From the NCBI RefSeq assembly GCF_000169175.1, contig NZ_AAWS01000049.1:1-64000 (forward strand): a stretch of DNA of 64,000 nt. Direction: 5' to 3'. Of the stretch, positions 14,047 through 63,016 are shown piece by piece. Made by a program: the position numbers and the translations under genes. The DNA is from Microscilla marina ATCC 23134 (lineage in GTDB: Bacteria > Bacteroidota > Bacteroidia > Cytophagales > Microscillaceae). The notes under the pieces are model-generated. The model searched no databases and was not told the origin of the DNA. It saw only the letters and a list, made by a program, of their open reading frames with translations. Every line of letters starts with the position of its first letter. Within the stretch, counting starts at the first letter, position 1.

Positions 14047-15486
14047 TTAATATTCTACTTGTACTTTAAGCGTAGTATCGCCTATAGTAATAATATCTTC
14101 GGGATTGAGTTTGTGCCCCGATTTTTTTACATCGGTAGAGTTTACCAACACCCCATTGCGTGACAAGTGCCAGCCCATTTTGCCGTTTTTTTCGTACCAT
14201 TGCCCATCTCTTATAAACCACAGCCATGACCCGTTTTTTTGTTTTACCCGCTCCAGGGTGGCGTGCCTGCCCGATATATACTTGGTAAACGACTCTACAA
14301 TGCCTATATCATTCGAGAAAGGTTGCTGCGCGTTGAACCAGCCCAAGGTTAGCAGATTTTGTTCTTTAGCGTCGGCAAGTTTGCTTAAGTTGTATTCCCT
14401 GCCTACTTCTTCACCATTCATTATTCGTAACGACCATTTACCAAACATATCTTTTGAGGCGTATTGTGGGGTTAACCTGGCAGGTTGCCCCAATATTTTT
14501 AATATATCATTGGCACTCTGGTAGCGGTCTTTGTACTTGGGAGCCAGGCATTTATGAATAATCGTTTGCCAGTCATCCGGCACGTCTTTTCTTATTTTAT
14601 TAATCTTTGTCAGCTTTCCTTTTCTAATCCGTTTGTAGTAGCCTGGCATGTCCTTTTCAAACTCTTGATAAGAGCCAAATGGCAAGTGCCCCTGGGTAAA
14701 TACCTCATACATGATCACCCCAAAGGAAAAGATGTCGTTGGTAGGCCCCATAATCTTAAAAGCCTGTTGAGGGTTCAATTGTTCGGGAGGGGCATAAATA
14801 GCCGTACCAAATACATTTTTTGCGTAGCCCATCAGGTTACGTTGGGTTTCGCGTCGTTTGATAAAGCCCGCAATGCCAAAGTCAGTCAGTTGTGCCCGGT
14901 TTTGTTCATTAAACAAAATATTTTCGGGTTTCAAATCTTTATGAATAATGCCAGAAGTGTGCAAGTCGTGCAAGCCTCGCAGCATATCTAAACCTAGTGC
15001 ATGCGTTTCTTCATGGTTCCATTCAAACAACATTTGGTCACGCAAATTACCCTTTGGGCAATACTCCATCACAATAAAAGGGTTCCCTTGTAGGCTGCCC
15101 TTGTCCATGCTGTTTACTATATAGTCAGAATGAATCTGCCCTGCCTCAAACTCCCGCTCAAATCGTTTTCGAATCTCCTGGTGTTCATTAGGCAACACTT
15201 TGCGCATTTCTATTACTTTGAGCGCATACTGGTTTTTTTCCTGGTCTTGGGCAAGGTATACCAGTCCATAGCCGCCTTTGTCTATGCTATTGACAATCTG
15301 GTATTTATTTTTAATCCCCTTTACTTCATCGCCTTTATGCAGATCTACTGCTTCGGGCACTATGTCTTTGTCAGCAATTGCCTCGTTTTTGGTAACCGTA
15401 GCGGCACGACTCAAGTCAAAACCACATTTGATACATTTAGGGGCATCTGCTTTATTGTAGTATCCACAATGCGAACAAATTTTCAT
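14047..15486 (-). CDS. Ser/Thr protein kinase with zinc ribbon and C-terminal FHA domain
   Basis: 479-aa cytoplasmic kinase. A four-cysteine zinc ribbon (CSHCG, then CIKCG) occupies residues 4-22. The Hanks-type kinase domain spans ~60-330: glycine loop DKGGYGLVYLA, invariant Lys in YALKVIEM, catalytic loop HKDLKPENILF, DFGIAG, and APPEQL in the activation segment. The FHA domain (~375-479) shows SGRHATLERV and NGVLVN, the phosphothreonine-reading loops. No membrane segment. The frame is open upstream to 15537, but ATG at 15486 starts directly at the zinc ribbon, as in its neighbours. It could phosphorylate, and be recruited to, the other FHA proteins of the cluster. Confidence 0.9.
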   Translation of the reverse strand: MKICSHCGYYNKADAPKCIKCGFDLSRAATVTKNEAIADKDIVPEAVDLHKGDEVKGIKNKYQIVNSIDKGGYGLVYLAQDQEKNQYALKVIEMRKVLPNEHQEIRKRFEREFEAGQIHSDYIVNSMDKGSLQGNPFIVMEYCPKGNLRDQMLFEWNHEETHALGLDMLRGLHDLHTSGIIHKDLKPENILFNEQNRAQLTDFGIAGFIKRRETQRNLMGYAKNVFGTAIYAPPEQLNPQQAFKIMGPTNDIFSFGVIMYEVFTQGHLPFGSYQEFEKDMPGYYKRIRKGKLTKINKIRKDVPDDWQTIIHKCLAPKYKDRYQSANDILKILGQPARLTPQYASKDMFGKWSLRIMNGEEVGREYNLSKLADAKEQNLLTLGWFNAQQPFSNDIGIVESFTKYISGRHATLERVKQKNGSWLWFIRDGQWYEKNGKMGWHLSRNGVLVNSTDVKKSGHKLNPEDIITIGDTTLKVQVEY

Positions 15487-15645
15487 TGTTAGTTTTTTAT
15501 TTGGGTCAATTTTGTTGTCATCATCTACAGTTGGCAAATAATATGAAGTTTTAGATAAAAAAACACACTATTTACTCATAGTTAACACATCTAAGAATTC
15601 ACTATAATTAGTTTATTATCAATGATTTAAACCTGCCTGTGGGGC

Positions 15646-16380
15646 TTATTTTTCTTTAAAAACAAAAAGTTTATTACCCATAATAATCATATCTCCTGGT
15701 TGAATAGGTACCCGATCACGTACTTGAATAAAAGTAAAACCATTAGAGCTTTGGTCTTTGATGTACCATTGTCCATTTTCATATTCAATTTTAGCGTGTT
15801 GCCCTCCCGATATGCTCTTGTTGTTGGCATCCAGGTTTTGGCGGTTCAACTCTACTTCTTCTCCTTCAAAGTTCAGGGTAGTTTTTCCTTTATCAGTTAC
15901 CAAACTAAACTTTTTAGAATCCCCAATATTGGTTACCTCCCAAGGGTCCAAAATAGTTTTGTGGCGTGGTTCAACGGGGGCGTTCTCCTCGTTTGTTTCG
16001 TCAAACCCTTTGGTCGAGTGTAAGTCAGTAGCATTGGTTGCTGCATTGTCAAACCCACAATTGGGGCAAATGTTTTGGTGAGCCCGCAAAGGATACCTAC
16101 AGCTGCTGCAACCATTTGCCTGATCCTCTTGTTGGGCTTGTTGTTCTGGCTTTTGCTCATTTCTGGGATTATCAAGGTAAGGTTGATCAGGTTCACCACC
16201 TTTTACCGTTTTTTGCGATGGTTTTTGATGCGCCAATGGGTCGCTGCCAGTAGTAGGCAAAAACCCCTGAGCCGAGCTGTTGTTAATGGTTTTTTTTGCA
16301 TCATTTAGGGCTGCGCCACATTTGGCGCAACTTTTAGTGTGTTCATCATTTATATATCCACAAGTATTACATCTTAACAT
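15646..16380 (-). CDS. Double zinc-ribbon FHA protein
   Basis: 244-aa adaptor. Zinc ribbon 1 (CNTCG ... CAKCG) is at residues 4-22. A linker rich in Gln/Pro/Lys follows, then ribbon 2 (CSSCR ... CPNCG) near 95-115, and an FHA domain (~165-244) with SGGQHAKIEYENGQWYIKD and SSNGFTFI. The start at 16380 puts the first ribbon at the N-terminus; the longer open frame upstream is probably not translated. It has no enzymatic domain and is probably a phosphothreonine reader that bridges kinase substrates. It lies between the phosphatase and the second kinase gene. Confidence 0.87.
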   Translation of the reverse strand: MLRCNTCGYINDEHTKSCAKCGAALNDAKKTINNSSAQGFLPTTGSDPLAHQKPSQKTVKGGEPDQPYLDNPRNEQKPEQQAQQEDQANGCSSCRYPLRAHQNICPNCGFDNAATNATDLHSTKGFDETNEENAPVEPRHKTILDPWEVTNIGDSKKFSLVTDKGKTTLNFEGEEVELNRQNLDANNKSISGGQHAKIEYENGQWYIKDQSSNGFTFIQVRDRVPIQPGDMIIMGNKLFVFKEK

Positions 16381-16657
16381 TGTTGGTATCCTTTCTGTTA
16401 TGTTTTCAAATATGGTAGATTGGCAGTGGCATACTTTGGTGTTCCTGATGCATCTATCGGGCAACATTCAAGGGTGCTTGCCACTCTTGGGCAGTTTTGT
16501 TGCCAAGAGCATGTTTAAAGTTAGCCAAACGGCAATGCTTGCCCTCTGAGGTTTTGTACTGGTGAGGTAAACCGGACGTCAGCAAGTTCGGAGTCTTTTG
16601 AACCGAACTTGTATTTGGGGTGTTGTATTACCTTTGTAAATAGAATAGCAAACCAGT

Positions 16658-18157
16658 TTAACCATTGGGGCTAAGCTGCCAATGCTTCATTTTCTCCTGT
16701 ATATCATACAGGCTGGCTTCCACTCTTTCTATAGTATAAATGGCTTTTTTCAATGCTTTGGGCGTGGTGGGTGCTACAAACTCATTGCTGCCTTTAATAA
16801 TTTTTTTTGCCACCAAAGGCGAAGCTATTTCTTTGGTGAGTCGTTGTTGCAAAGCCTTTAGTTTTTTCAGTTCAGCAGGTATGTCTTGATAACTCTTTTT
16901 AAGCCCTTCTATATTTTTCAGTACTTTAGCCTTGTCGTCCAGTAATTTTTTTAGGCGGGCTTCTAAGGCAGCTACTTCTTTTGGATCAGCCTTTTTTTCT
17001 TCTCGCAGCAACACAGGTGGTCTATTTTCTTTTTCGTTTCTACCAGTACTGGCACCTTGTTCTTTACTGGTGGTATCTTTGCCTGATGTTTGCTCGTGTT
17101 TGGTTTGAGTAGAGTCTATCATCACGGGCAGTTTTTGTGCTTTGTTGGCTGCTTTGTTTATTTGTGCGGGGTTGTCAGTTTGCCCCAAATTGCTAAAAAG
17201 CAAATAAAGGCTACATATCAAAATCAACAAAGAAACCCACAGTATGATTTTTTTCTTTTGAGCATCCAGCCCCGCCTTTTGGTCAGCAGTATCTCTTACC
17301 TGCACGTTTTTGCCTACCCGATTTATGTCGAGCATGTCCATCAACAGCACCGTAATGTTGTCACTGCCTCCGGCAAGGTTGGCTTTGTTTACCAGTTCTT
17401 GGCAGGCCTCAGAGGTTCCTTGGGTTTTTTCCAGGATAGCCTCAATGTCAGGGTCGTCCAGTTCGCCGTTGAGCCCATCGCTGCATAACAACAATCGATC
17501 GCCGGTTTGCAATTGCAAGGTCTTAGCTTCGGGGCTGGGCGGGTTGCGTGCCTCGCCCAAACTCTGGGTAATGATATTACTTTGTGGGTGCAACCTTGCC
17601 TGGTTGGGCGTAAGGTGCCCGCTTTGTACCAATTCCCACACCATAGAGTGGTCATCGGTAGCTGGAGTCAGTGGTACTCCCTGGCGGTATAAGTACACCC
17701 TACTGTCGCCCGACCAGGCCACATAAGCTTTAAGTCCTATTACCCAGGCTATAGCAGCCGTAGTACCCATTCCTTCGGTTTCGGGGTGGGCAGCAGCATG
17801 CGCCAAAATATTTTTATGAGCAACCTTGATCACTTTTTTCAGGTAATCTTTGATAGCTTGACTCGACTCAGGCAGGGCTTGCAGTTTTTGAAACATCTGC
17901 TTGGCAGTATTTACCATTATTTCAGATGCTACCTCTCCTGCGTTGGTTCCTCCCATACCATCGGCTACCACCATTACCGAACCAAGCGCCCCTTGCTTAA
18001 AGGCGTGTTGGTTAAACTCCCACTGGTTGGCCTTAATGTCTTGTCCAATGGCAAAGTTGTCCTCGTTGTGGTCGCGTGCCTTGCCTACATCAGTTCTGCC
18101 AAAAATATTGACCAATGCATCGGTTTTGTTTTCCTCTATGTTATTTGTAACACTCAA
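16658..18157 (-). CDS. PP2C-type protein phosphatase with membrane anchor
   Basis: 499-aa Ser/Thr phosphatase of the PPM family. Metal-binding motifs are in order: RDHNEDNFA (~residue 30), VVADGMGGTNAGEVAS (~65), WSGDSRVYLYR, DDHSMVWELV, LLLCSDGLNGELDD and GGSDNITVLLMD (~265). A single transmembrane segment (IILWVSLLILICSLYLLF) lies near residues 306-325. The outer part is charged, with long coiled coil (LEARLKKLLDDKAKVLKNIE). It is the eraser for the two kinases of this cluster, with the catalytic domain in the cytoplasm. Confidence 0.92.
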   Translation of the reverse strand: MSVTNNIEENKTDALVNIFGRTDVGKARDHNEDNFAIGQDIKANQWEFNQHAFKQGALGSVMVVADGMGGTNAGEVASEIMVNTAKQMFQKLQALPESSQAIKDYLKKVIKVAHKNILAHAAAHPETEGMGTTAAIAWVIGLKAYVAWSGDSRVYLYRQGVPLTPATDDHSMVWELVQSGHLTPNQARLHPQSNIITQSLGEARNPPSPEAKTLQLQTGDRLLLCSDGLNGELDDPDIEAILEKTQGTSEACQELVNKANLAGGSDNITVLLMDMLDINRVGKNVQVRDTADQKAGLDAQKKKIILWVSLLILICSLYLLFSNLGQTDNPAQINKAANKAQKLPVMIDSTQTKHEQTSGKDTTSKEQGASTGRNEKENRPPVLLREEKKADPKEVAALEARLKKLLDDKAKVLKNIEGLKKSYQDIPAELKKLKALQQRLTKEIASPLVAKKIIKGSNEFVAPTTPKALKKAIYTIERVEASLYDIQEKMKHWQLSPNG

Positions 18158-18237
18158 TTTATTACTATAAATACGTTTATTTTTTGTCGATTCCTCAGGC
18201 TAATTTCCATTAAAAAATGAATATATCCAAAGCCTGG

Positions 18238-19113
18238 TTAATTATTGCGATTTCTTCTGTTTCTTCTACTTCTTCTTTTCTTCTTTTTTTTCTTGCCATT
18301 ACCTTCAATCAGCGTGAGCTTTTTGGTAAACTCATTCTGAAAAGCAGTCAGCTCCCATGTTTCCGGTTTTTGGGGTTGGCGGGTATACAATGCTACCAAA
18401 TGATAAGCAACGGTACCCAGCTCATAATTTGCCGAAAAAAAGGCGCCGCCTACCACTGTACCTGGCAGGTTCATTTTTTTGAGTTGTCCAGTGCTTCGGG
18501 CGTCGTTCCAGTGGATGTACTGTTTAGTGACCGACATTTTTATTTTGCTATAAGGCGATATAGGTTCACTCCCTGGGCTATAAAAAATCACCATAATCCC
18601 TGTACTGGGTATTTCGGTTTGGTGTAGCTTTAGAGTAGGTGTTTTTTTAGACAATTTATAATAAGCCAGTGCCCGCAAAGCCACCGAGTCAGATTCAAAC
18701 TCTACAGCGGTGTACTTACAGTTGCAGTTAGAGCTGTTATAGCGATATTTGGTTATTTTAGTGAGCCCTTTGGCAGGGAATAACGAATCTTTTGCCATTA
18801 CCTTATAACTCTTATCTACAAGCCAAGGGTACAGTACCTGTTTTTCTGTCCAAAGCACATTTTGTGCATTGACCCCTATGCCGTAGTGTCTGCCAAAATA
18901 CGCCTGGTTTTTTCTGGTAAATGCCTGCCCTTTTTTGTTTTGAAGGTTATAGTCTTGCTGAATAAGATAAAAAGCGCCTGCAAGCGATTTTTTGACAATA
19001 CTGGTGCCAGACACAAAGTGTCGAATAGGCTTAAGTGTCAGTGTAGTGTCTTGCGCCCTGACCGAGCCCACCAGTCCCAATAAAACAATTGCTGCAATTA
19101 ATCTTTTTTTCAT
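18238..19113 (-). CDS. Secreted protein of unknown function, basic C-terminus
   Basis: 291 aa. A clear signal peptide (MKKRLIAAIVLLGLVGSVRA) is followed by QDTTLTLKP. No known domain recognised. Visible features: a NCNCKYTAVEFESD motif near residue 133 and a strand-rich body. The C-terminal tail is extremely basic (lysine run, then RRSRRNRRNRNN), suggesting binding to acidic polymers. It sits inside the kinase/phosphatase operon, between the FHA-protease and PP2C genes. It could be the extracytoplasmic partner of the membrane-anchored proteins there; this is inference from position alone. Confidence 0.7.
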   Translation of the reverse strand: MKKRLIAAIVLLGLVGSVRAQDTTLTLKPIRHFVSGTSIVKKSLAGAFYLIQQDYNLQNKKGQAFTRKNQAYFGRHYGIGVNAQNVLWTEKQVLYPWLVDKSYKVMAKDSLFPAKGLTKITKYRYNSSNCNCKYTAVEFESDSVALRALAYYKLSKKTPTLKLHQTEIPSTGIMVIFYSPGSEPISPYSKIKMSVTKQYIHWNDARSTGQLKKMNLPGTVVGGAFFSANYELGTVAYHLVALYTRQPQKPETWELTAFQNEFTKKLTLIEGNGKKKKKKRRSRRNRRNRNN

Positions 19114-19272
19114 AGTGTGTAGTAATTTATTTTATGCTTTATGTTGTGTGATTAGTAGTTTTTTAGCGGCGAGTAACTACAAAATAGAGTTACTCATGAT
19201 GTTTAATGGTTAGGTATACTTCATGATGATTGGCTACTGATAGCTATCCATATCTGTTCAGTAATGGCGTTG

Positions 19273-20880
19273 TCACCTGATGGCTGATATAGGGATAATA
19301 CTGCCTGTAACTCCCCTGCCTGCCGAAATAATGCCTATGACCACGAGTTTGCCCTGGGCAGTGGTAAATGCAGGGCCACCAGAGTTGCCTGTATCAAAAC
19401 TACGCCCAGTGACTGTAATAGACTCATTGACCAAGCCGTTTTGACCCACTTCGTTTTTGCTATACACGGGCTCTAGTTTTTGCTGGTTTTGCAGCGACAA
19501 ACCATACGGAAAACCCAATACATGTAGTTCGGTTCCCCGTTTTAAACTACTTGACAAAGCAGCATTTGCCTGTAGGCTACCCGTAGTCGAGGTTTTAAAG
19601 TAGGCCCAATCAGTGCCATTGCCCAACTGGGCTTTTTTAATGGCAAATTCATCTTCATCTACTTGTACCGTATAAGGTTGATCTTTGGTACGGTCTACTA
19701 TAAAAGAGGTATTGGTCAGGGCTATTTTTTTTCCAGTAGGAGACACTGCCACCATGTTGGCTACAATTTTACCCCCATTGTTGGCATAAGTATTCAACAA
19801 CATCATAGGGTCTTTATTGTCTTTAAAATAATACCAGGGCTCTACCACATGCCGTGCTGTTACAAACCTTCCATCATTGAGTAAGAAACCAGTGCCCGAC
19901 CAAAGTTCATTTTGCGACTTTATCTCTTCGGTGGTGCCATCAGGGTAGGTTACATCCAACGAGGTAGAATAAATGAAGTATACATCACCCTCAGCTTGTT
20001 TGAGCAAGCCTTGTATGTTGGCATTTCCCGGATTGTCAGTGTTATTGTTACTATTGCCTCCGCCACCCGGATTGTTTCTGTTGCTGCTGTTATTAGATGC
20101 TTTGGCTTTGAGAGCTCTAAACCTTTGTTCAAAAGCCTGGCGCACTGCTTCCATTTGATCTTTAGTGTTTGACAATTCTTTTTGTACCCGTGTATTGTTT
20201 TTATGCGCGGCATCTAATGAGTCTACAATTGTATTATTGGCTTTTTTGAGTCCTGCCAATGTGATTTGCTGGCGGGCTATAGTGTCTTTATTACTTTTGA
20301 TAATATTGCCTTGGTTGCTAATGATGTAACCAGCCACCGCTATGCTGGCAATGAGTAAGAATAAAAGGGATAAAAAAGCATTTTTATAAGGCTTAACTGC
20401 TTGTTTAATGACCAGGTTCATGCGGTTGGTAAGCCCTAGTTTGGCAGTACCTGTGGCCGACACATTGAACAATAACTTGGGACCTTCAAGCGATAGTTGT
20501 ATTTCATCGCCGTTGGTCAGGTACCACTGCTCAGCTACTGGTCTGCCGTTGATAAGGGTAGGGTTGGTGGCAGACAAGTTTTTAATAAAAATATCTTTGC
20601 CTTTGCGCTCAATGGCGGCGTGTTTACGACTGACTGTATTACAACCATCGTCAAACTGAATGACACAAGAGTTGGCACGTCCTATTTCTACGTAAGGAAC
20701 CACGATTTTTTCGTAACTACCTGCTGGGTGCTTGTCAGTATTGGTAAGGTGTTGCAGGGTATAAATGGGCACATCAGCCCCTCCCAGAATTTTCAGTCCA
20801 GTTGCAAAAGCCTGTGTAGCGCGGTTGGGTTGAGTTTGTTTGCCCTTTTCCGCCAGGGTCTCTTTATTTGTCATACGCAA
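19273..20880 (-). CDS. FHA domain - membrane - trypsin-like serine protease
   Basis: 535-aa fusion. The N-terminal FHA domain (~55-140) has SRKHAAIERKGKDIFIKNLS and NPTLINGRPV. A transmembrane segment follows (FLSLLFLLIASIAVAGYII, ~170-190), then a coiled coil and an Asn/Gly-rich linker. The chymotrypsin-fold protease domain has all three catalytic residues: His in VTARHVVEPW (~341), Asp in GTDWAYFKT (~426) and Ser in FDTGNSGGPAF (~498). The topology puts FHA inside and the protease outside. A phosphorylation event in the cytoplasm could thus be coupled to proteolysis in the periplasm. Start may be the second ATG (MTNKE). Confidence 0.9.
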   Translation of the reverse strand: MRMTNKETLAEKGKQTQPNRATQAFATGLKILGGADVPIYTLQHLTNTDKHPAGSYEKIVVPYVEIGRANSCVIQFDDGCNTVSRKHAAIERKGKDIFIKNLSATNPTLINGRPVAEQWYLTNGDEIQLSLEGPKLLFNVSATGTAKLGLTNRMNLVIKQAVKPYKNAFLSLLFLLIASIAVAGYIISNQGNIIKSNKDTIARQQITLAGLKKANNTIVDSLDAAHKNNTRVQKELSNTKDQMEAVRQAFEQRFRALKAKASNNSSNRNNPGGGGNSNNNTDNPGNANIQGLLKQAEGDVYFIYSTSLDVTYPDGTTEEIKSQNELWSGTGFLLNDGRFVTARHVVEPWYYFKDNKDPMMLLNTYANNGGKIVANMVAVSPTGKKIALTNTSFIVDRTKDQPYTVQVDEDEFAIKKAQLGNGTDWAYFKTSTTGSLQANAALSSSLKRGTELHVLGFPYGLSLQNQQKLEPVYSKNEVGQNGLVNESITVTGRSFDTGNSGGPAFTTAQGKLVVIGIISAGRGVTGSIIPISAIR

Positions 20881-21228
20881 TTCCTTAGTATGTTCAATGG
20901 TGGTTTTTCAGGTAGCACACACATTGTATCATACACAATTCACTATATAAATTTGATTCCTAAGTAATGGTTGAAAAATAAGGTATCCATTTGGAGATAG
21001 AGATTTACCACTGAGGCGAGATGGCGACATCCTATGGATGTTGAGCCAGCTTGCGCGACGGTTGCGTTCGTAGCAGCGCTACGAGCAATAAAAACTCACA
21101 GTCCCGGCGAACTGCCGGGGTAACGAAGTATCAGTAATAAAGGTCATTTCCTAAATCGAAAGCTTACAGTCCCGATGAATCGGGGATTATTTTTTGTCCA
21201 TTACTAAACTAAATATTTTCCTGTTTAT
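20881..21228. other. Intergenic with dispersed repeat and GC hairpins
   Basis: Holds the repeat at 21013-21083 and two short hairpins, TCCCGGC-gaact-GCCGGGG (about 21103-21121) and TCCCGAT-ga-ATCGGGGA (about 21170-21186). No gene. Separates the WG kinase from the FHA-protease gene and may contain an internal promoter. Confidence 0.5.
21013..21083. repeat. Dispersed repeat ending in GTAGCAGCGCTACG palindrome, copy 1
   Basis: Shares GGATGTTGAGCCAGC, then CGCGACGG/CGGGACGG, and the terminal TAGCAGCGCTACG with 59175-59239. Non-coding. Confidence 0.6.
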
Positions 21229-23316
21229 TTACAGGCAGTCCTGTACACATTTTCCGTAGCGATTGATATACATTTTCTTGCCTCTGTAAACGACTTTGGC
21301 TTTGCCATTGTAAAAATGTCCGGGTTTGTCAAACTTATGAGGAATGACTGTTTTTCCGTATCGATTGATATACCCCCATTTTCCGTACTTTTTTGCGGCA
21401 GCAAGCCCTTCATAAAACGGCCAGGCACTTTCATATTGGGGTTTGGCAATCAGTTTCTTTTTGCGGTCAAGATATCCCCATCTGTTGTTTTGCTCTATTA
21501 AAAAACAAGTAGGGTACTCTTCTATATAGTCATATTGGCTATTGTTGCCAGACTGATGCGAGCGTTTATGTGCCCGATGTCTTTGCCTCTCTCGTTCGGC
21601 TTTTTTTCGCATGTAATCCTTGGCGTAATTTTCGCCCAGGTGCTCATACTTTTTACTCATCTTGCGGCTCCACTCGTTTACTTTTTCTTTGCTTTTGGCG
21701 TTTTTTGTAGCATCTTTTACCAACTCTATAATCTCTTTTGGTAAATCTATGTTAATGCTGTTTTTACCTTTCTTTCCTTTGCCAGCAATGATCACCCCGT
21801 TTTCGGTAATCACAAAAGAAGGTTTATCCTTGCCAGGAGGGGTTGGTGGTTCAGGTACATTTTCATCATATTTTGTAAGTTCTTCAACATCGGAAGTGGA
21901 CTCTTCTTGTTTTTTTTCTTTCAGTTTTTTATTTTTCTTATGCAACTGTTCCTCCATTAAGCGCAACTGTTCCTGCAAGTCTTTGGCTTTTTGCTGGTTT
22001 TTTGTTGTTTGCTTTTTGACCTCCTTATTTTTTTTATTTTCTGATAATTTTTCGGGCTGGTCATTTGCATTCATTGCCAAGGTATCGTTGTTTGCCATTA
22101 ACTCTGGCTTACTTTTGCTCAGGTTTTTTTGTACATATTCTCTGCCTATCAGTACTACCAATACAATCATGACTGCGCCCAAAAACATGTACACATTACG
22201 ATCAAAGGTGCGTTTGCCTGTAGCGGCTACTGCCTTTCTTTTTTTCTTGTCTACCGCTTCGGTTACTCGTTCAGACCTTACCACAGGCACATCGTTGTCA
22301 TCTACGCCTTCCAAATCTTCTACATCAAGCTGTAGGTCTGGGTGGTCTTCTGTTTTGTGTATGGGTGTATTTGTTTTTTCTGAAGTAACCCCTTCGGTGG
22401 GTGTTTGAGTGGCCGAACCCTCTGGTATTGCCGACAAGGAATCTGCCTTGTAACGAGTTATTTTTTCAAAACCTTCCCACTTGCCCTTGTCAAGGTATAC
22501 CAACGATAGCTGATGCAGTTGTTCAGCCGTGGGGCGTTGGGTAGGTTCTCGGTTCATACATGCCTGTACTATTTGATTAAGCTCAGGTGAGTACTCTTCG
22601 GGAATTTCGGGTACTGCCGATCCTGTTAACAACGATTGCCCTCCGTGTCCCATCCAGGGTACTTCATTGGTGCAAAGCTCATATAACATTACCCCAAAAG
22701 AGAATATATCGCTGGCGGGCATGCTCTTGGGTCGGCTGGTAAACTTTTCGGGTGGAGCATAAGCAATGGTCAACGAATTGGATGAAGCAGTACTTCGGGT
22801 GCTTTTCATCATAGTATGCCGCATACGGCTACTAATGCCAAAGTCTGACAGTAAGAACTCGTTTTTTTCTGTAATGAGTACATTGTCTGGTTTTATGTCT
22901 TGGTGCAACACTACCGGGTGCCGTTGGTGTAAGTAGGCAAGCCCATCACTTACGTGCGACATCATCACAGCAAGTTCTGCTTCAGACAATACTCCCTGTT
23001 TGAAAAGTTTTTTGGTAAGAGATCCTTTTGCGCAAAGCGGCATTACCAAATAGGGAGAGCCTTCGGTAATATCAAAATAGGTGGGTTTTAATAAATGTTT
23101 ATGATTGAGCGAAACAGTAAGTGCATACTCGCGTCTAAAAAGTTCTATTCCATCTTCATCCAGCCCAGTACCAGCAGCATAAATCTTAAGTGCCACTAAA
23201 GCATTTTCAGCCATTTGGTCTATTACTTGCCATACTTCCGAAAACCCCCCTAACCCTAACAGTTTCTGTAGCTGGTAGCGCCCGGCAAATATATCTTTAG
23301 GTTTAAAAACAGCCAT
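21229..23316 (-). CDS. Ser/Thr protein kinase with transmembrane segment and WG repeats
   Basis: 695-aa receptor-like kinase. Kinase domain ~14-280: GLGGFSEVWQ, ALKIYAAG, catalytic loop LHQDIKPDNVLI, DFGISS, and APPEKFTSRPKSMPASDIFS. An acidic linker leads to a single transmembrane segment (VYMFLGAVMIVLVVLIG, ~370-390), then a long Lys/Glu coiled coil (~400-480). A basic region and three WG-type repeats (NNRWGYLDRKKKLI, YGKWGYINRYGKTVI, GKKMYINRYGK) end the protein. The WG part would be outside the cytoplasm and is a probable ligand- or wall-sensing element. The upstream FHA gene ends 166 bp before its start. Confidence 0.92.
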   Translation of the reverse strand: MAVFKPKDIFAGRYQLQKLLGLGGFSEVWQVIDQMAENALVALKIYAAGTGLDEDGIELFRREYALTVSLNHKHLLKPTYFDITEGSPYLVMPLCAKGSLTKKLFKQGVLSEAELAVMMSHVSDGLAYLHQRHPVVLHQDIKPDNVLITEKNEFLLSDFGISSRMRHTMMKSTRSTASSNSLTIAYAPPEKFTSRPKSMPASDIFSFGVMLYELCTNEVPWMGHGGQSLLTGSAVPEIPEEYSPELNQIVQACMNREPTQRPTAEQLHQLSLVYLDKGKWEGFEKITRYKADSLSAIPEGSATQTPTEGVTSEKTNTPIHKTEDHPDLQLDVEDLEGVDDNDVPVVRSERVTEAVDKKKRKAVAATGKRTFDRNVYMFLGAVMIVLVVLIGREYVQKNLSKSKPELMANNDTLAMNANDQPEKLSENKKNKEVKKQTTKNQQKAKDLQEQLRLMEEQLHKKNKKLKEKKQEESTSDVEELTKYDENVPEPPTPPGKDKPSFVITENGVIIAGKGKKGKNSINIDLPKEIIELVKDATKNAKSKEKVNEWSRKMSKKYEHLGENYAKDYMRKKAERERQRHRAHKRSHQSGNNSQYDYIEEYPTCFLIEQNNRWGYLDRKKKLIAKPQYESAWPFYEGLAAAKKYGKWGYINRYGKTVIPHKFDKPGHFYNGKAKVVYRGKKMYINRYGKCVQDCL

Positions 23317-23482
23317 TCTTTTTCATTTATGGTATATATGGTAATTAACCCGCCATATTGGATGACGAGTTAAATTATTCCTGATTACTTATAAAAATAG
23401 GGTAAAGTTGTACATATAACATGAGCCATCCTACCCTAAAAAGGTTGCATATTAGAAAAAATTTCTTCTAATATAGTAAAAA

Positions 23483-24091
23483 TTATTCAGCTTTTACCCT
23501 GACTGTAGGCGTGTAGGATAGCTTTCTTACGGTTTTCAACGCCGTAATTTCGTCTTGTACTACATTTCTGGTTTTTAGCACCATTTTGGTCTCGCCTACC
23601 TGTATAGTGTCTCCGTCAGAAAGCGCCTGAGGAAAACTCTTGCCCACTGGTTGGGTTTGCCCATTGACGTATACCCCATTCCTACTTTCCAGGTCTATAA
23701 TGTGTATTTCATGGGTGCCTACCTTTAGTTCTGCGTGTTTGCGGCTGGCAAACTGGTCATTGTTAAGCGTGATATCAGGTATGTTGCCCGGAATCGCCCT
23801 TCCAATCACATATTTGCCTTGCTTAAGTTCGTGCAGAAGCGTGGGTTGGTTTTCGGTATGTACCACCAACCAGGCAATGATCATATTTTTACTGTGAGAC
23901 AAGGGTGGAGGAGTTATTTCTTCGTGAAAAGAAGTGGTAATACCCAAAGGGTTTTGCTGAGATTTAAGAAAAGAAGACGGAATACGGTCTTTGTTTTCGT
24001 AACCCCACCAAAGCGCTTGACAGTTGGAGCAATGGTAGTCTTTTTGGTAGCTTACCTCTTGTCGGCAGCTAATGCAGGTAATGGTATCCAT
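23483..24091 (-). CDS. Zinc-ribbon FHA protein (first gene of the signalling block)
   Basis: 202-aa soluble protein. N-terminal zinc ribbon (CISC, then CSNC) within the first 25 residues; a proline-rich linker; and an FHA domain (~90-180) with YVIGRA, FASRKHAELKV, and SRNGVYVNGQT, i.e. all conserved phosphothreonine-contact loops. It opens the leftward series of genes and its start is 44 bp from MITE copy 2. Likely a phospho-reader or kinase substrate. Confidence 0.88.
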   Translation of the reverse strand: MDTITCISCRQEVSYQKDYHCSNCQALWWGYENKDRIPSSFLKSQQNPLGITTSFHEEITPPPLSHSKNMIIAWLVVHTENQPTLLHELKQGKYVIGRAIPGNIPDITLNNDQFASRKHAELKVGTHEIHIIDLESRNGVYVNGQTQPVGKSFPQALSDGDTIQVGETKMVLKTRNVVQDEITALKTVRKLSYTPTVRVKAE

Positions 24092-31066: not shown

Positions 31067-32511
31067 CTTAAAACTCTACAGATTATTCGTTACCAAATGA
31101 AAACCTGTTTAGGGCATCATTGACTTGTTCTGGAGAGATGTCTTGTTGTTCAAAAAATCGCTGAGCAAGTTTGTAGTTAATGAGTTGTGCAAAGCCATTT
31201 AATATAAAATGCCTTGTTATTTTCCCTTTTCCTCCTCCCAGTTGTGCAATCCACTCAATAGTTTTATCCTGAGTAAGCTGATCCTCTATTTCATAAAAGT
31301 AGCCTGCGACAAAGTAAATGAGAGAAATAAGGTTTTTAACCACATTGTAGTCAGGTATCCTGTTATCTTCCCAACCTAAAACCTCCTTACAAAACTTAAA
31401 TACCCCTTCAATCTTGGCTCTCTTGCAGTATAACTCAAACACCATTTGCGCCATTTGAAGCTGATCAACCTGCATATTGGTGATAAGCAACATGGGGTTT
31501 TTAAAAATATTCCGTCCAGCACGGTCAAAAAAGCGAATCTTTACTACACTATATATCCTACCTTTGATTTCTACTTCGTTCCACTCAAAAACCCCCTTTG
31601 CATCCTGATAGGTCTTGCCCTGTAAAGTCATTTTCTGATAATGAACTTCATCCCCTTGAAAAAACTGCTGATGCCTCAGTTTGATGTTCTTTTCCTTCCC
31701 GCTACTACACACTTGTAATTCATTGGAGACCCTATTGAGCTTGCTGCGAACTACAAACAGGTTACCCAAATCCGTTTCATGTTCAAATACCTCCGTATCA
31801 TCGAAACCTCGGTCATATACATCTACAATGACAGCATTGGGATTAGAAGCACGAATTTGCCCAGTAATTTGACTGGTATGATCCTTGACCAAGCTCTTGA
31901 GGTTATAACCTTGCCCCGAAGTAAGAGCTAACTTTATTTCTTTTGCCCTATTTTGATCCTTAAGCTTATTATCTTCATAAAGCCGAAGCTCCTCTACCTT
32001 TAAATAGTTAGCGTCGGTTGTGCTGTAGGGGCTACACCTAAGCAAACGAAGGTTTTTGCCACGAATGTCGACACAAGCACTGCTCAGGGAACGGTAGCCA
32101 TTAATCAGTTTTTTGTCCAAGTCCAATACTTTACACAGGTGGTCAGCCTCTTGGCTATATTTTTTGCGAATGTCACTGGGATCATGCAATACTACTACAT
32201 AGTCCTTATCCTTGAAATATTCGCTATTGTTCGCCAACAAGCTAATGTTGAGCTTTTCACTATCCAAAACTGTTTTTAAGCTGCCATCCAACATACGGTG
32301 ATTTCTTGTGTATTCATTTGTGTCTTCGGAAATAGTATAAAGGTTACTCTTCTTCGTAGAAATTAGCTTTTCTATCAAAGAGGAAGCGTTTTTTTTACTT
32401 GGGTTTGACCCAACTGAGCTAGTAATGACTCACAATAAGCAGGTAAAGTAGGCATTTTTGACCCTAAATTTAAAACATTTGCAACTCTTCCCTAATCTGT
32501 AGAGTTTTCAG
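31067..32511 (-). mobile_element. IS4-family insertion sequence, complete
   Basis: 1445 bp. Inverted ends of 19 bp with one mismatch: CTTAAAACTCTACAGATTA on the left, and its match CTGAAAACTCTACAGATTA read inwards from the right. Flanked by the 7-bp duplication TTTGATA. It contains one transposase, split into two frames by an A8 run. Intact ends and duplication suggest a fairly recent insertion into the 30.7-33.0 kb spacer. Confidence 0.85.
31083..32455 (-). CDS. IS4-family transposase, probable -1 frameshift product
   Basis: DDE transposase. The main frame (31083-32378, 431 codons) carries the first Asp in VVLHDPSDIRK, the second in VIVDVYDRGFDD and the C-terminal Glu in YCKRAKIEGVFKFCK. 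The last fits exactly the IS4 signature Y(2)R(3)E(6)K. The 431-codon frame has only a TTG start. Upstream, ATG at 32455 opens a frame MPTLPAYCESLLAQLGQTQVKK that stops at 32378. The frames meet at GTA AAA AAA ACG, an in-phase A_AAA_AAA slippery heptamer; a -1 shift joins them. Programmed frameshifting or an indel in the A-run are both possible. Confidence 0.8.
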
Positions 32512-40708: not shown

Positions 40709-41146
40709 TTAAGCATCATCAAACAGCCAGGCTTTGGCATCTTCTATATTGTCAAAGTACCTGACTAAGCCAGCAGTTTCACCTGTTTCCTCCATGGTTT
40801 GTTCAAAAGAGAGTTGGGTAATAAAATCTGCATTCTGGATAAAAGCTGTTTTGGGGTAGTACCCAATTGTTTCTACTACTTTTTTGCCAATGTTTTCGTG
40901 TTGCCACTCCTGTAGATCAGGCGATATAGTGAAAAAATTAAATCTATTGTCTAACAACTGATATTTAAATGACGAAATATAACCCTCGTCTATCAGAACT
41001 TTGAGCCCCTCAGATAATAGCGTTTGGTAATCTTCGTCAGTCATATCTGCTGATGCTTCGTGCCAGTATAATTCATATAAATCTAAATCTGTGTCAATAT
41101 ATGCAGTAAAGTAGTTGTTGGATAGGGAGGATATTTGAGTTCTCAT
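40709..41146 (-). CDS. STAS/SpoIIAA-like protein, array member 1
   Basis: 145 aa. One of four tandem paralogues of the family also seen at 3029-3460. Features: N-terminal strand with YFTAYIDTDLDLYELYWHEASADM, the sequence TDEDYQTLLSEG, then LLDNRFNFFTISPDLQEWQ, a GYYPKTAFIQ strand, LSFEQTMEET helix and the closing YFDNIEDAKAWLF. This is the most divergent of the four. ATG at 41146 is chosen because all paralogues start M-[RK]-x-Q-[IT]-S. The fold assignment is inferred. Possibly phospho-switch or partner protein for the adjacent histidine kinase. Confidence 0.72.
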   Translation of the reverse strand: MRTQISSLSNNYFTAYIDTDLDLYELYWHEASADMTDEDYQTLLSEGLKVLIDEGYISSFKYQLLDNRFNFFTISPDLQEWQHENIGKKVVETIGYYPKTAFIQNADFITQLSFEQTMEETGETAGLVRYFDNIEDAKAWLFDDA

Positions 41147-41323
41147 TTTCTTAGGATTTAATACATAGTTAAAAAATATAGACATTACTTGTAAGCAATG
41201 TTTAGTGATTACTATAACTATATACCAAATTAGTTATGGTTCTATGGATATAAAGTATGGCTTTTTTAGGTTTAATTAAGGGAGTATAAGAGGTGTGTAG
41301 GTTTTGAAGACTAAAAACAGTTT

Positions 41324-41773
41324 TTAGTCTTCAGTTTCATAAAATAGCCAGAGTTTGGCGTCTTCTACATTGTCAAAGTACTTGACCATACCATTGGTTT
41401 CGTTGGTTTCTTCCATGCTTTGCTCAAAAGACAGTTGAGTAATGAAGTCTTCGCTTTGGATAAAAGCAGTTTTAGGGTAGTAACCCAGTGTATCAAAAAT
41501 TGCTTTCCCAACGTATTCGTTTTGCCATTCTTGTAACTCAGGTGACATAGTAAAAAAGTTGAACCTATTGTCTAGCAGTTGGCAAAAACTTTGGGTATCC
41601 TTGATGTGATCATTTTTTAGTACAATGTCAAATTGATGCGTTAGTAGCGTGACATATTCTTGATCTGTCATATCTTCTGAGCCTTCCAGCCAATAAAGTT
41701 CATATAGTTTTAGATCTTCGTCAAGAAAGGCCTCGAAATAAGTGTTGTCTTTGCTAGATGTTTGAATTCTCAT
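41324..41773 (-). CDS. STAS/SpoIIAA-like protein, array member 2
   Basis: 149 aa. N-terminal two-thirds are virtually identical to array member 3 (MRIQTSSKDNTYFEAF, LYELYWLEGSEDMTDQEYV, then IKDTQSFCQLLDNRFNFFTMS). The C-terminal 40 residues diverge (NGMVKYFDNVEDAKLWLFYETED). DNA identity with member 3 extends through the upstream non-coding 160 bp, showing a recent duplication with unit ~617 bp. Confidence 0.75.
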   Translation of the reverse strand: MRIQTSSKDNTYFEAFLDEDLKLYELYWLEGSEDMTDQEYVTLLTHQFDIVLKNDHIKDTQSFCQLLDNRFNFFTMSPELQEWQNEYVGKAIFDTLGYYPKTAFIQSEDFITQLSFEQSMEETNETNGMVKYFDNVEDAKLWLFYETED

Positions 41774-42066
41774 GCTTTTAGGAGTTTAATATATAAGTAC
41801 TATGATACACCAAATATTGGAATAAAGGTAAGGCATAGTAAAATATTTTAGTTGGAGAGAATGTGTAGTTAGTCTTGGCTAACCAACAGGATATAAAAGG
41901 GGGGCTACCTCGGATAAGATATCCCCCGAGAATCTCTAGACAGTAGAATCGGCTACTCCTAATAGCCAAGATTTAGCGTCTATTACATTGTCAAAATACC
42001 TTACCAAACCAGATGTTTCCTCTGTTTCCTCCATTGTTTGCTCAAATGAAAGCTGAGTGATAAAAT
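41450..42066. repeat. ~617-bp tandem duplication, unit A
   Basis: Spans the N-terminal coding part of array member 2, the upstream spacer, and the C-terminal part of member 3. It matches unit B (42067-42683) at an offset of 617-618 bp. Ends are approximate. Confidence 0.65.
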
Positions 42067-42391
42067 CTTCACTTTGGATAAAAGCAGTTTTAGGGTAGTA
42101 ACCCAGTGTATCAAAAATTGCTTTCCCAATGTATTCGTTTTGCCATTCTTGTAACTCAGGTGACATAGTAAAAAAATTGAACCTATTGTCTAGCAGTTGG
42201 CAAAAACTTTGGGTATCCTTGATGTGATCATTTTTTAGTACAATATCAAATTGATGCGTTAGTAGTGTGACATATTCTTGATCTGTCATATCTTCTGAAC
42301 CCTCCAGCCAATAAAGTTCATATAGTTTTAGATCTTCGTCAAGAAAGGCCTCGAAATAAGTGTTGTCTTTGCTAGATGCTTGAATTCTCAT
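41936..42391 (-). CDS. STAS/SpoIIAA-like protein, array member 3 (chimeric)
   Basis: 151 aa. Its N-terminal ~110 residues equal those of member 2 and its last ~40 (SGLVRYFDNVIDAKSWLLGVADSTV) equal those of member 4. This is the structure expected from unequal crossing-over between two neighbouring paralogues. The reading frame is intact, so the hybrid is probably expressed. Confidence 0.75.
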   Translation of the reverse strand: MRIQASSKDNTYFEAFLDEDLKLYELYWLEGSEDMTDQEYVTLLTHQFDIVLKNDHIKDTQSFCQLLDNRFNFFTMSPELQEWQNEYIGKAIFDTLGYYPKTAFIQSEDFITQLSFEQTMEETEETSGLVRYFDNVIDAKSWLLGVADSTV

Positions 42392-55539: not shown

Positions 55540-55847
55540 TTAAAAAGTCAAATTTAGAAGTAGACCAAAAAAATAATTGCACAAAAGTATCAATATTTGG
55601 GATGAATGGAAAAGTTTTATTGTATTAATCAAAGAAGGCATCGCCAGGTTGGGAACATCTTGATGTTTACTTAAAAAGATTGTAAGATAAAATAGTACAA
55701 TTAGTATTTGTGTGACTTTTAAAGTTATAAAATTACTGTAGTAACAAGGGCTTTTTTTGTATGTTAGAAGAGAGGAATTATAACAAAAAGCTACACCCTT
55801 GCAGAGAAAGGTTGAGCAAAATCATTACTCTGATAAATAAAAGAACT

Positions 55848-56735
55848 ATGAGAACAATTATGACATTAATTTTTTGCCTAATAACGCATCATTGGGCAAC
55901 TGCACAACAATCTTTTGAGTGGGTAATTGCCCCAAAGTACAAGCGTGCTGGAGCTTTTTCTCAAAAAATGGCGTTTGTAGCCCAAAATAATCGCTACGGC
56001 TACATCAACAGAACAGGTAAAATGGTCATTGAGCCTCAGTTTGAAATGGTTTGGAACTTTGCCCCCAATGGCTTGGCAAGAGTACAAAAAAGCAATAAAC
56101 AAGGCTACATTAACCGAAAAGGTGATTTTGTGATTGCAGCACAGTATATCATTGCCGGAGATTTTTCGGAAGGGTTGGCGGCTATTCGTCAAGACAAAAA
56201 ATGGGGATATATCAACAAAGCCGGAAAGATAGTGATTACACCACAGTTTGACGAAGCCTGGGCTTTTTCGGCAGGGCTGGCACCCATTAAACAGCAAGGA
56301 AAATGGGGGTATATCAACAAAAAAGGAAAAATAGTGATTGCGCCCAAGTTCAGCGTTGCTGATGATTTTATCGAAGGACTTGCTTGTGTAGAATACAACT
56401 ACAGCTATGGGTTTATCAACCAAAAGGGGGAGTTTGTAGTCAAGCCTGTTTTTGCCAAAGCAGATGATTTTTCAGAAGGGTTGGCAAGGGTAGAAGACGA
56501 AGGCAAGTGGGGATACATCAACAAAAAAGGGAAGTATGTGATTAAGCCCAGTTTCGACGAGGCGTTGGTTTTTGCAGAAGGCTTGGCACCAGTTGAAAAA
56601 AACGATCGATGGGGATACATTAATAAAAAAGGCGAATTTGTGATTAAGCCTCAGTTTCAGGAAGCGTATGATTTTTCTGACGGAATAGCATTGGTGCGTA
56701 AAGGTCGCAAGTGGGGGTATATAAAGCTAAAATAG
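55848..56735 (+). CDS. Secreted WG-repeat protein
   Basis: 295 aa. Signal peptide (TIMTLIFCLITHHWATAQ), then eight WG-type repeats of ~34 residues, each 'G-Y-I-N-x-x-G-x-x-V-I-x-P-x-F-x-x-A-x-x-F-x-x-G-L-A'. The W-G is W-G-Y in five, Y-G-Y, Q-G-Y and Y-G-F in others, showing young duplication at DNA level (102-bp period). WG repeats are small extracytoplasmic beta structures of unknown ligand. The start at 55848 yields the signal peptide; the longer frame to 55761 is less likely. Related to the C-terminal part of the kinase at 21229-23316. Confidence 0.88.
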   Translation: MRTIMTLIFCLITHHWATAQQSFEWVIAPKYKRAGAFSQKMAFVAQNNRYGYINRTGKMVIEPQFEMVWNFAPNGLARVQKSNKQGYINRKGDFVIAAQYIIAGDFSEGLAAIRQDKKWGYINKAGKIVITPQFDEAWAFSAGLAPIKQQGKWGYINKKGKIVIAPKFSVADDFIEGLACVEYNYSYGFINQKGEFVVKPVFAKADDFSEGLARVEDEGKWGYINKKGKYVIKPSFDEALVFAEGLAPVEKNDRWGYINKKGEFVIKPQFQEAYDFSDGIALVRKGRKWGYIKLK

Positions 56736-58438: not shown

Positions 58439-58954
58439 TTAAGATGCCCGCTTGACCAGCTTTTGAAATTTACGCTTAAGCGAAAACTTCCTTTTTCTGA
58501 TTTCGTCGGGTGCGGTGTTCAATACCTGTGCTATTTCCTGATTGGTATACTCTTGCTGTATATACTCAAACAAGACAAGCTCATCGTTGGTGAGGTGCAA
58601 CTGGCTAAGCCAATGGTTCCATTCGCCCGCTTGCTCAAAACGTTTCATTTGGCGACAAGTTTGACTACTGCTAAAAGTAGCTTTGCAATGAGCCACATAC
58701 TGAAGACTGTTTTGTCTTTTACGCAAGACATCTACTGCTTTGCGGTAGCAAGTGCTCCAGAGAAAGCCAGGCATGTTAGCAACCTCTTTGCCTTGGTTAA
58801 GTTCCTCAAATAACTTGATGTAGGCATCGTTTACCACATCTATACTTTCGGCATTGTTTTGCAATACATGTTGCGCTTTGGCAAGCAATGCCTTGTATAA
58901 CTTTTGATCATTGAACAGGGCAGCAATTACTCCCTCTATAGATTTTTTTTTCAT
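58439..58954 (-). CDS. ECF-type RNA polymerase sigma factor
   Basis: 171 aa. Region 2: LLAKAQHVLQNNAESIDVVNDAYIKLFEEL (the D-V-V-N-D-A/V-Y-x-K-L-F-E pattern), MPGFLWSTCYRKAVDVLRKRQNS (DNA-melting part). Region 4: LTNDELVLFEYIQQEYTNQEIAQVLNTAPDEIRKRKFSLKRKFQKL, helix-turn-helix for -35 binding. No anti-sigma gene is adjacent. ATG at 58954 fits. Target genes unknown; the secreted protein downstream is a candidate. Confidence 0.88.
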   Translation of the reverse strand: MKKKSIEGVIAALFNDQKLYKALLAKAQHVLQNNAESIDVVNDAYIKLFEELNQGKEVANMPGFLWSTCYRKAVDVLRKRQNSLQYVAHCKATFSSSQTCRQMKRFEQAGEWNHWLSQLHLTNDELVLFEYIQQEYTNQEIAQVLNTAPDEIRKRKFSLKRKFQKLVKRAS

Positions 58955-62818: not shown

Positions 62819-63016
62819 TATACTTCCGGTTTGTTTGAGTGAAAAATAGGGCATTGTACCTCAATGCTTTGCCAAAGTACAGGAATTATACTGTGATATC
62901 CCTCATTAGTTTTGAGGATATTGTAAGCGTAGGAAATCATTGGTTTTGGGGATAGAAGGTTGGTGAATAGGTCATAGTTTTGCAAAAGTTTTTTAATCAA
63001 AAATATTTGCAATTTT

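Follow-up and report, generated by a model that had tools for sequence, protein, structure and literature searches.

A block of seven genes in Microscilla marina ATCC 23134 appears to encode a conserved transmembrane (TM) module of Ser/Thr phospho-signalling with a periplasmic trypsin-like domain as its switched output, a reading to which we assign a probability of roughly one half. The genes span positions 14047-24091 of the window, i.e. the whole stretch of 64,000 nucleotides from contig NZ_AAWS01000049.1 that was analysed, and all lie on the minus strand, so that the block is read from 24091 down to 14047. Starting with the gene furthest upstream, they encode an FHA protein with two CxxC pairs, a membrane kinase (KT), a protein that joins an FHA domain to a trypsin-like domain (FT), a secreted protein (SEC), a PP2C phosphatase (PP), a zinc-ribbon FHA adaptor (ZF), and a kinase with a C-terminal FHA domain (KF). 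The sequences show that five of them, KT, KF, ZF, PP and FT, keep together in several families of the Bacteroidota, and the idea of a conserved, self-contained set of writers, eraser and readers is supported. As the original prediction had stated, no system of this composition seems to have been described: An FHA-protease fusion beside kinases was not found in the open-access papers searched. We regard the block as a real, conserved and undescribed variant of bacterial Ser/Thr phospho-signalling, the mechanism of which we infer. Bacterial Ser/Thr kinase circuits are known to act via cytoplasmic readers; if our reading is true, a protein whose phosphopeptide reader controls its own periplasmic protease part would represent an inside-out route, of which we have found no description.

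The genes recur together in other genomes. A tblastn survey with PP2C, followed by scanning of 20-kb stretches with home-made domain profiles, identified the same parts together in the genomes G079, G091, G104 and G116. We then searched 390 genomes of the order and 395 genomes of a phylum sample with an FT profile built from alignment A1. Full-length relatives of FT are present in seven of the former and in three of the latter, and nine of the ten FT copies (both Microscilla genomes counted) sit in a block with kinases, a zinc-ribbon FHA protein and PP2C. The distribution of KF is similarly narrow: In the phylum sample, its profile gave E <1e-200 for Microscilla (G000), G603 and G645, and the one remaining match was in G728 (E 1e-89). 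FT and KF are thus found in the same three of the 395 genomes, in addition to one distant KF (Fisher p ~4e-7, not corrected for relatedness). A scan of genome contigs with a single protein matched only the near-identical Microscilla; it should be kept in mind that draft contigs may be broken. The original prediction had named singly scattered homologues as the outcome that would speak against it, and this is not what the neighbourhood survey found.

The order of the genes differs among the clusters. In G603 and G645 it is KT, KF, ZF, PP and FT, followed by genes for a coiled-coil TM protein and a MotA/ExbB protein. In G351, the order is KT, PP, a SEC homologue, FT, KF and ZF, and in G116 KF, a ZF-like gene, PP and FT are divergent from two KT genes. 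PP and FT are divergent from KT, ZF and KF in G091 and G104, and G079 has the same arrangement without KF. The MotA/ExbB-like channel and its coiled-coil TM partner are co-directional with the FT gene in two families (L109:11179-12812, L110:10565-12135); the coiled-coil protein is MotB-like by position and N-terminus, and the pair is a possible energised partner.

One might suppose that the clustering is accidental or that it merely unites housekeeping genes with a loose relation to each other, since PP2C proteins of the same subfamily also occur alone in several genomes (L058, L062-L066) and the gene order varies. However, five orthologous components that are repeatedly clustered in several families and that have parallel trees already contradict this idea, and we consider it hardly credible. 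In a tree of 56 kinase domains, all KT of the blocks, including the extra KT of G116, form one clade (support 100/99), all KF form another (100/99), and the two clades are sisters (99/94). KT and KF are therefore ancient paralogues of this block. Moreover, pairwise distances are correlated among all five components (r 0.46-0.93; FT-KF 0.90, FT-KT 0.88, FT-PP 0.62). PP shows the weakest correlation overall, as is to be expected because the PP2C of the unit may be replaced. With seven clusters, some of them closely related pairs, these correlations are supportive but not proof.

Two further observations concern the Microscilla genome itself. This genome of 9.77 Mb contains 20 kinase, nine FHA and two detectable PP2C loci, and four of the nine FHA domains fall into 10 kb; in simulations, the probability of finding three of nine FHA domains within 10.1 kb was 0.0003. 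The block therefore concentrates a large share of the FHA repertoire. As compared to the near relative G007, dN/dS is between 0.01 and 0.24 across all seven genes, indicating that all of them are under purifying selection.

The domain content was confirmed by Pfam and alignments as it had been proposed: seven leftward genes with two kinases, a PP2C phosphatase, and an FHA-TM-trypsin protein whose triad is intact. Pfam identified two proteins with Pkinase domains (E 1e-39 and 8e-45), one PP2C domain (1e-15), and four FHA domains (5e-7 to 8e-16), as well as Trypsin_2 (2e-10) within FT and two WG repeats (3e-20) located C-terminal to the membrane segment of KT. Both kinases have all typical motifs, i.e. 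the glycine loop, the VAIK-like lysine, HxD, DFG and the APE-like motif, and the metal motifs of PP2C are present as well. The claim of a signalling block of seven holds for the two kinases, the phosphatase and the four FHA domains, whereas the gene at 18238-19113 encodes a secreted protein without a Pfam match.

KT (21229-23316) consists of a Ser/Thr kinase domain with an HQD catalytic loop, a TM segment, a linker and the two WG repeats (assigned by Pfam, motifs, tree and TM prediction). The HQD that replaces HRD is common to nearly all KT orthologues. KF (14047-15486) has a zinc ribbon, a Ser/Thr kinase domain and a C-terminal FHA domain but no TM segment (Pfam, motif alignment, kinase tree); the N-terminal zinc ribbon corrects the earlier description of this kinase. 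The first open reading frame for KF ran to a TTG at 15537; more likely, the gene begins with the ATG at 15486, which is also where its counterpart in G007 (L038) starts. The FHA domain of KF has GW where the canonical domain has GR, and its set of canonical FHA residues is thus incomplete. Of the four FHA readers that had been proposed, all are found as domains by Pfam, but perhaps only three have canonical sequences. ZF (15646-16380) is a double zinc-ribbon FHA adaptor (Pfam, motif alignment); its start is probably at 16380, with an open reading frame that extends to 16467. PP (16658-18157) is an Stp1-like PP2C phosphatase with a TM segment and a periplasmic coiled coil (Pfam, metal-binding motifs, TM prediction) that scores 224.8 bits with the NCBIfam model NF033484 (cut-off 230). 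FT (19273-20880) combines a cytoplasmic FHA domain, a TM segment, a coiled coil and the trypsin-like domain with H344, D424 and S500 (Pfam, alignments, tree). FT was also considered as a MarP-type membrane serine protease, but this was rejected: it scores 18.9 bits with NF033740 (cut-off 250) and has a single rather than multiple TM segments.

In KT, PP and FT, one membrane segment is predicted to follow the cytoplasmic domain, and in most cases Lys/Arg residues are more numerous before this segment than after it; in FT, a positively charged stretch precedes the segment. According to the topology predicted from these features, the periplasm contains the trypsin-like domain of FT, the coiled coil of PP and the variable outer part of KT. 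Structure predictions of FT and SEC, run without an alignment, were poor (mean pLDDT 37 and 33), and the FT model is confident only for an uninterrupted helix (residues 163-263) that comprises the TM segment and the stalk. The outer domain of KT varies with the lineage: the Microscilla protein has WG repeats, those of G091 and G104 have Sel1, and that of G603 has CarboxypepD_reg, as expected for sensors. It had been suggested that WG repeats outside the cell could be the sensor; the predicted topology does put them outside the cytoplasm, while sensing as such is a conjecture. WG proteins are found beside kinases (G728) or fused to a kinase (Microscilla) in two lineages. In the window, a signal-peptide protein of WG repeats, recognised by eye at 55761-56735, resembles the outer domain of KT in type.

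How could such a module work? The outer domain of KT (WG here, Sel1 or carboxypeptidase-regulatory-like elsewhere) would sense an envelope condition, and the paralogous kinases KT and KF would phosphorylate each other or common targets. At the inner membrane, the resulting phosphothreonine may then dock on the FHA domain of FT (and of ZF), and its binding might be relayed along the continuous TM/coiled-coil helix to the trypsin-like domain in the periplasm, whose activity or assembly would thus be switched. Finally, PP2C would erase the marks and reset the system. Whether information indeed flows outward, to proteolysis, we regard as an even question.

The two ends of FT have been conserved to a different extent. 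The FHA residues G67, R68, S84, H87, N106 and N111 are invariant in all nine type 1 copies of FT that were compared, each of which satisfies the canonical motif for phosphothreonine binding (GR, S..H, N, NG). The His/Asp/Ser triad with GNSGGP is present in the FT of the window and in L067, L102, L109 and L110. By genome, the full triad is found in the FT proteins of Microscilla, G116, G351, G603 and G645, as well as in all related proteins of a second cluster type compared (see below) and in the G728 protein. In the genus g58 (G079, G091 and both copies of G104; L059, L060, L061 and L103), the triad is incomplete, with His replaced by Arg and Ser by Tyr or Phe. As these four copies form one clade (100/100), catalysis was most simply lost once. 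Together with the invariant FHA domain, this indicates that the intracellular reader has been constant while the protease activity has not. The output is probably proteolysis in Microscilla and in four other sampled lineages; in the one clade, the trypsin-like domain would have turned into a non-catalytic periplasmic binding part. The control of periplasmic proteolysis by phosphorylation, as the original prediction had it, is weakened as a universal rule by this pseudoprotease clade, which keeps a canonical FHA domain without the catalytic His and Ser; in itself, such control is no more than plausible.

Because of the pseudoprotease clade, the possibility that the outer domain acts as a receptor has to be seen as a serious rival. 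In such an outside-in scaffold, the trypsin-like domain, whether active or dead, would be the sensor and bind a periplasmic peptide or a misfolded protein, the FHA domain would gather phosphorylated kinases at the membrane and thereby shape phosphorylation in the cytoplasm, and proteolysis would be secondary or lost. This fits with the retention of the FHA residues in all copies as opposed to the loss of the triad in a clade that keeps the block, and with the FHA-pseudoprotease in L061 that is still linked to kinases and PP2C. It also agrees with weak PDB matches of FT to HtrA-type proteins, which bind stress peptides. However, five of the six sampled lineages that have the block keep the full triad in spite of ~35% identity, and the dN/dS of FT is 0.04, suggesting that catalysis is usually selected. 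We therefore consider the scaffold a minority view, albeit one to be taken seriously. The protease is specific to this block, as shown by a paralogous STK/PP2C/FHA cluster in the same genome that has none. This cluster (L074, G000:C14:146000-165900) encodes two TM kinases (one of them with LysM), PP2C-TM, vWA-TM-FHA, and an FHA protein, and similar STK/PP2C/FHA clusters were found in many genomes of the order. The conserved gene set, the pseudoprotease clade and the protease-free paralogous cluster provide built-in controls for an analysis of the inside-out module.

Several findings weigh against a phospho-switched protease module of this composition. Catalytic residues are gone in the clade just discussed, and the second FT copy of G104 (L103) has no block neighbours within 20 kb; this orphan FHA-pseudoprotease (L103:9131-10909, G104:C209) has neither a kinase nor a phosphatase beside it. 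KT and PP of G351 have no clear membrane segment. The second zinc-ribbon FHA protein and SEC are not general members of the block. Finally, the intergenic gaps of 80-350 bp, one of them with a repeat element, make a single transcript uncertain. Promoter scans were at or near chance (23 sites found versus 23.8 expected; 10 versus 6.6 in a second scan), and terminator-like sites exceeded the shuffles (20 versus 12.5) but are mostly on the plus strand. The repeat element, ~236 bp in length at 20964-21199 between FT and KT, is dispersed with 49 full or partial matches across the genome and may be classified as miniature inverted-repeat transposable element (MITE)-like or mosaic; the corresponding site of G007 (L038) lacks it, and the junction shows an overlap of 8 bp.

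The two genes that are not general members deserve a brief description. SEC (18238-19113) is a protein of 291 amino acids, the N-terminus of which resembles a signal peptide while its C-terminal tail is basic; it has no Pfam match, and its relatives in the searched sets are restricted to G007 and G351. In G351, the homologue is found at the equivalent spot between the PP2C and FHA-trypsin genes. Judging from its position only, SEC could be a substrate or an inhibitor of the outer domain of FT, or a partner of it. The second zinc-ribbon-like FHA protein (23483-24091; Pfam FHA 8e-16) owes this designation to its two CxxC pairs, as there is no Pfam support for the ribbon; a counterpart was looked for inside the blocks of the relatives, and none was seen.

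Outside the block, the window contains a recent insertion sequence (31067-32507) as compared to G007 (L039), with an overlap of ~10 bp and a 431-amino acid transposase-like open reading frame (31083-32378, by eye). A caspase-fold, metacaspase-like protein with a CHSGD motif (60911-62854, by eye) is encoded near a small sigma-factor-like gene (58439-58954). Finally, at least two similar proteins of ~150-160 amino acids are encoded in a row (40709-42391 and on to 43000), three in G007 (L039), and form a local paralogous family.

Kinase, phosphatase and FHA genes are also associated with type VI secretion, and the block might be a unit for threonine-phosphorylation control that came away from a contractile injection machine (of type VI or another kind) and still controls that machine or what is left of it. 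To detect such machines, we used PF05943 and then the Bacteroidota TssC model PF17541, which caught machines that PF05943 had missed. PF05943 is absent from all eight block carriers tested (G007 was checked with PF17541 only), and neither of the two Microscilla genomes nor G079, G603 or G645 has a match to PF17541; no type VI genes were seen in the window. In G091, G104, G116 and G351, TssC matches lie on other contigs, without a kinase, PP2C or trypsin gene in the flanking stretches examined (one FHA gene is located near the edge of L124). TssC is present in 24 of the 395 genomes of the phylum sample, and all domains of the cassette are missing from 26 of the 28 stretches examined around these genes. 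The link is not zero, however. The type VI locus of G728 (L122 and L127, G728:C1:321500-361300; DUF4280, TssF/TssK-like, TssC, ClpV-like) is flanked on both sides by genes of a matching set that encode KIN-TM, KIN-FHA, ZnR-FHA, two WG proteins, FHA-FHA-TM-trypsin, PP2C and further FHA proteins. Its KIN-FHA protein is the fourth-best KF match in the phylum sample, whereas its protease branches apart from type 1. Thus, the earlier statement that secretion genes are missing here holds for Microscilla, which lacks the sheath gene, but not for every carrier of such a set. In general, the cassette cannot be called a type VI operon, yet the two have met, and G728 may bear on the origin of the phospho-control units of type VI systems in Bacteroidota. 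For the block itself, control of a contractile machine is improbable.

Slightly less probable still is an anti-phage or abortive system of the kinase-kinase-phosphatase (KKP) kind with a protease effector. KKP is a defence module of PfkA, PfkB and PfpC (PMC11341870). As in KKP, PP2C is accompanied by two kinases, one of them (KF) with a C-terminal FHA domain, and the kinase domains match the PADLOC models for MAD6 and PD-T4-6; these PADLOC and NCBIfam matches, however, cover the generic kinase domain only. Membership in the MADS/MAD6 kinase system was rejected, with 124.8/125.6 bits for NF047741 (cut-off 460). Moreover, neither kinase of the block has a cold-shock domain, its chromosomal neighbours are ordinary, no FT relatives were found in viral contigs or plasmids, and the membrane and periplasmic parts are ill-suited to a cytoplasmic toxin. 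The protein P0001 has partial phage matches at 28-30% identity only. The block thus differs from KKP by the lack of a cold-shock kinase and of phage or plasmid records, and by its membrane-bound members, protease and zinc-ribbon adaptors.

A second type of cluster in the same order (family f11: L047, L069, L104, L114-L117) resembles the block in that it combines KIN-TM, PP2C and FHA-TM-Trypsin_2 with, in most cases, a second kinase, which is absent in L117. The triads are intact in the six FHA-trypsin proteins aligned. In contrast to the block, the kinases of this type II cluster belong to other clades, its FHA-trypsin proteins form a separate branch, and a beta-barrel-like secreted protein takes the place of ZnR-FHA and KIN-FHA. 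This protein of 204-212 amino acids is encoded beside KIN-TM at L047:7227-7841, L104:2673-3311, L115:3354-3983, L116:3282-3920 and L117:13516-14142. The type II cluster is probably an independent assembly, and given the separate branching of both proteins FHA-TM-trypsin seems to have joined STK/PP2C at least twice. We tentatively propose, as a more far-reaching idea that we would not rank above an informed guess, a so far undescribed class of transmembrane signalling in bacteria, in which phosphothreonine docking on the cytoplasmic FHA domain switches the periplasmic trypsin-like domain over one membrane helix, an arrangement assembled at least twice with STK/PP2C and converted to a pseudoprotease receptor in one clade.

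Among the described systems, PpkA/PppA/Fha provides threonine-phosphorylation control of type VI secretion in Proteobacteria. In its logic, the block comes closest to this pathway and to KKP, and in its domain content to kinase/PP2C/vWA themes known from surveys of conflict systems; on testing, it was assigned to none of them. Like the block, this pathway has a membrane Ser/Thr kinase, PP2C and an FHA reader encoded together; Fha is reported to bind the phosphothreonine of TssL (PMC3953482). The block differs by the absence of a type VI machine in Microscilla, the FHA-TM-trypsin output, the two paralogous kinases and the zinc-ribbon FHA proteins, and its FHA proteins are not members of the TagH/Fha family TIGR03354 (21.8-31.4 bits, cut-off 120). 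The GAP1-N2 theme, in which a zinc-ribbon or TM kinase is encoded with PP2C and vWA (PMC7159879), shares with the block the kinase beside PP2C. Unlike these triads, the block has no vWA or GTPase: Pfam found no vWA protein of a TerY-P-like triad in it, and vWA-TM-FHA is instead part of the paralogous cluster in G000:C14 (L074). The architecture of FT finally resembles that of SctD/YscD, with an FHA-like cytoplasmic domain, one TM segment and a periplasmic domain, and FT indeed matches Yop-YscD_cpl (E 8e-7); in FT, however, the periplasmic part is a trypsin fold rather than the ring-building domains of SctD/YscD.

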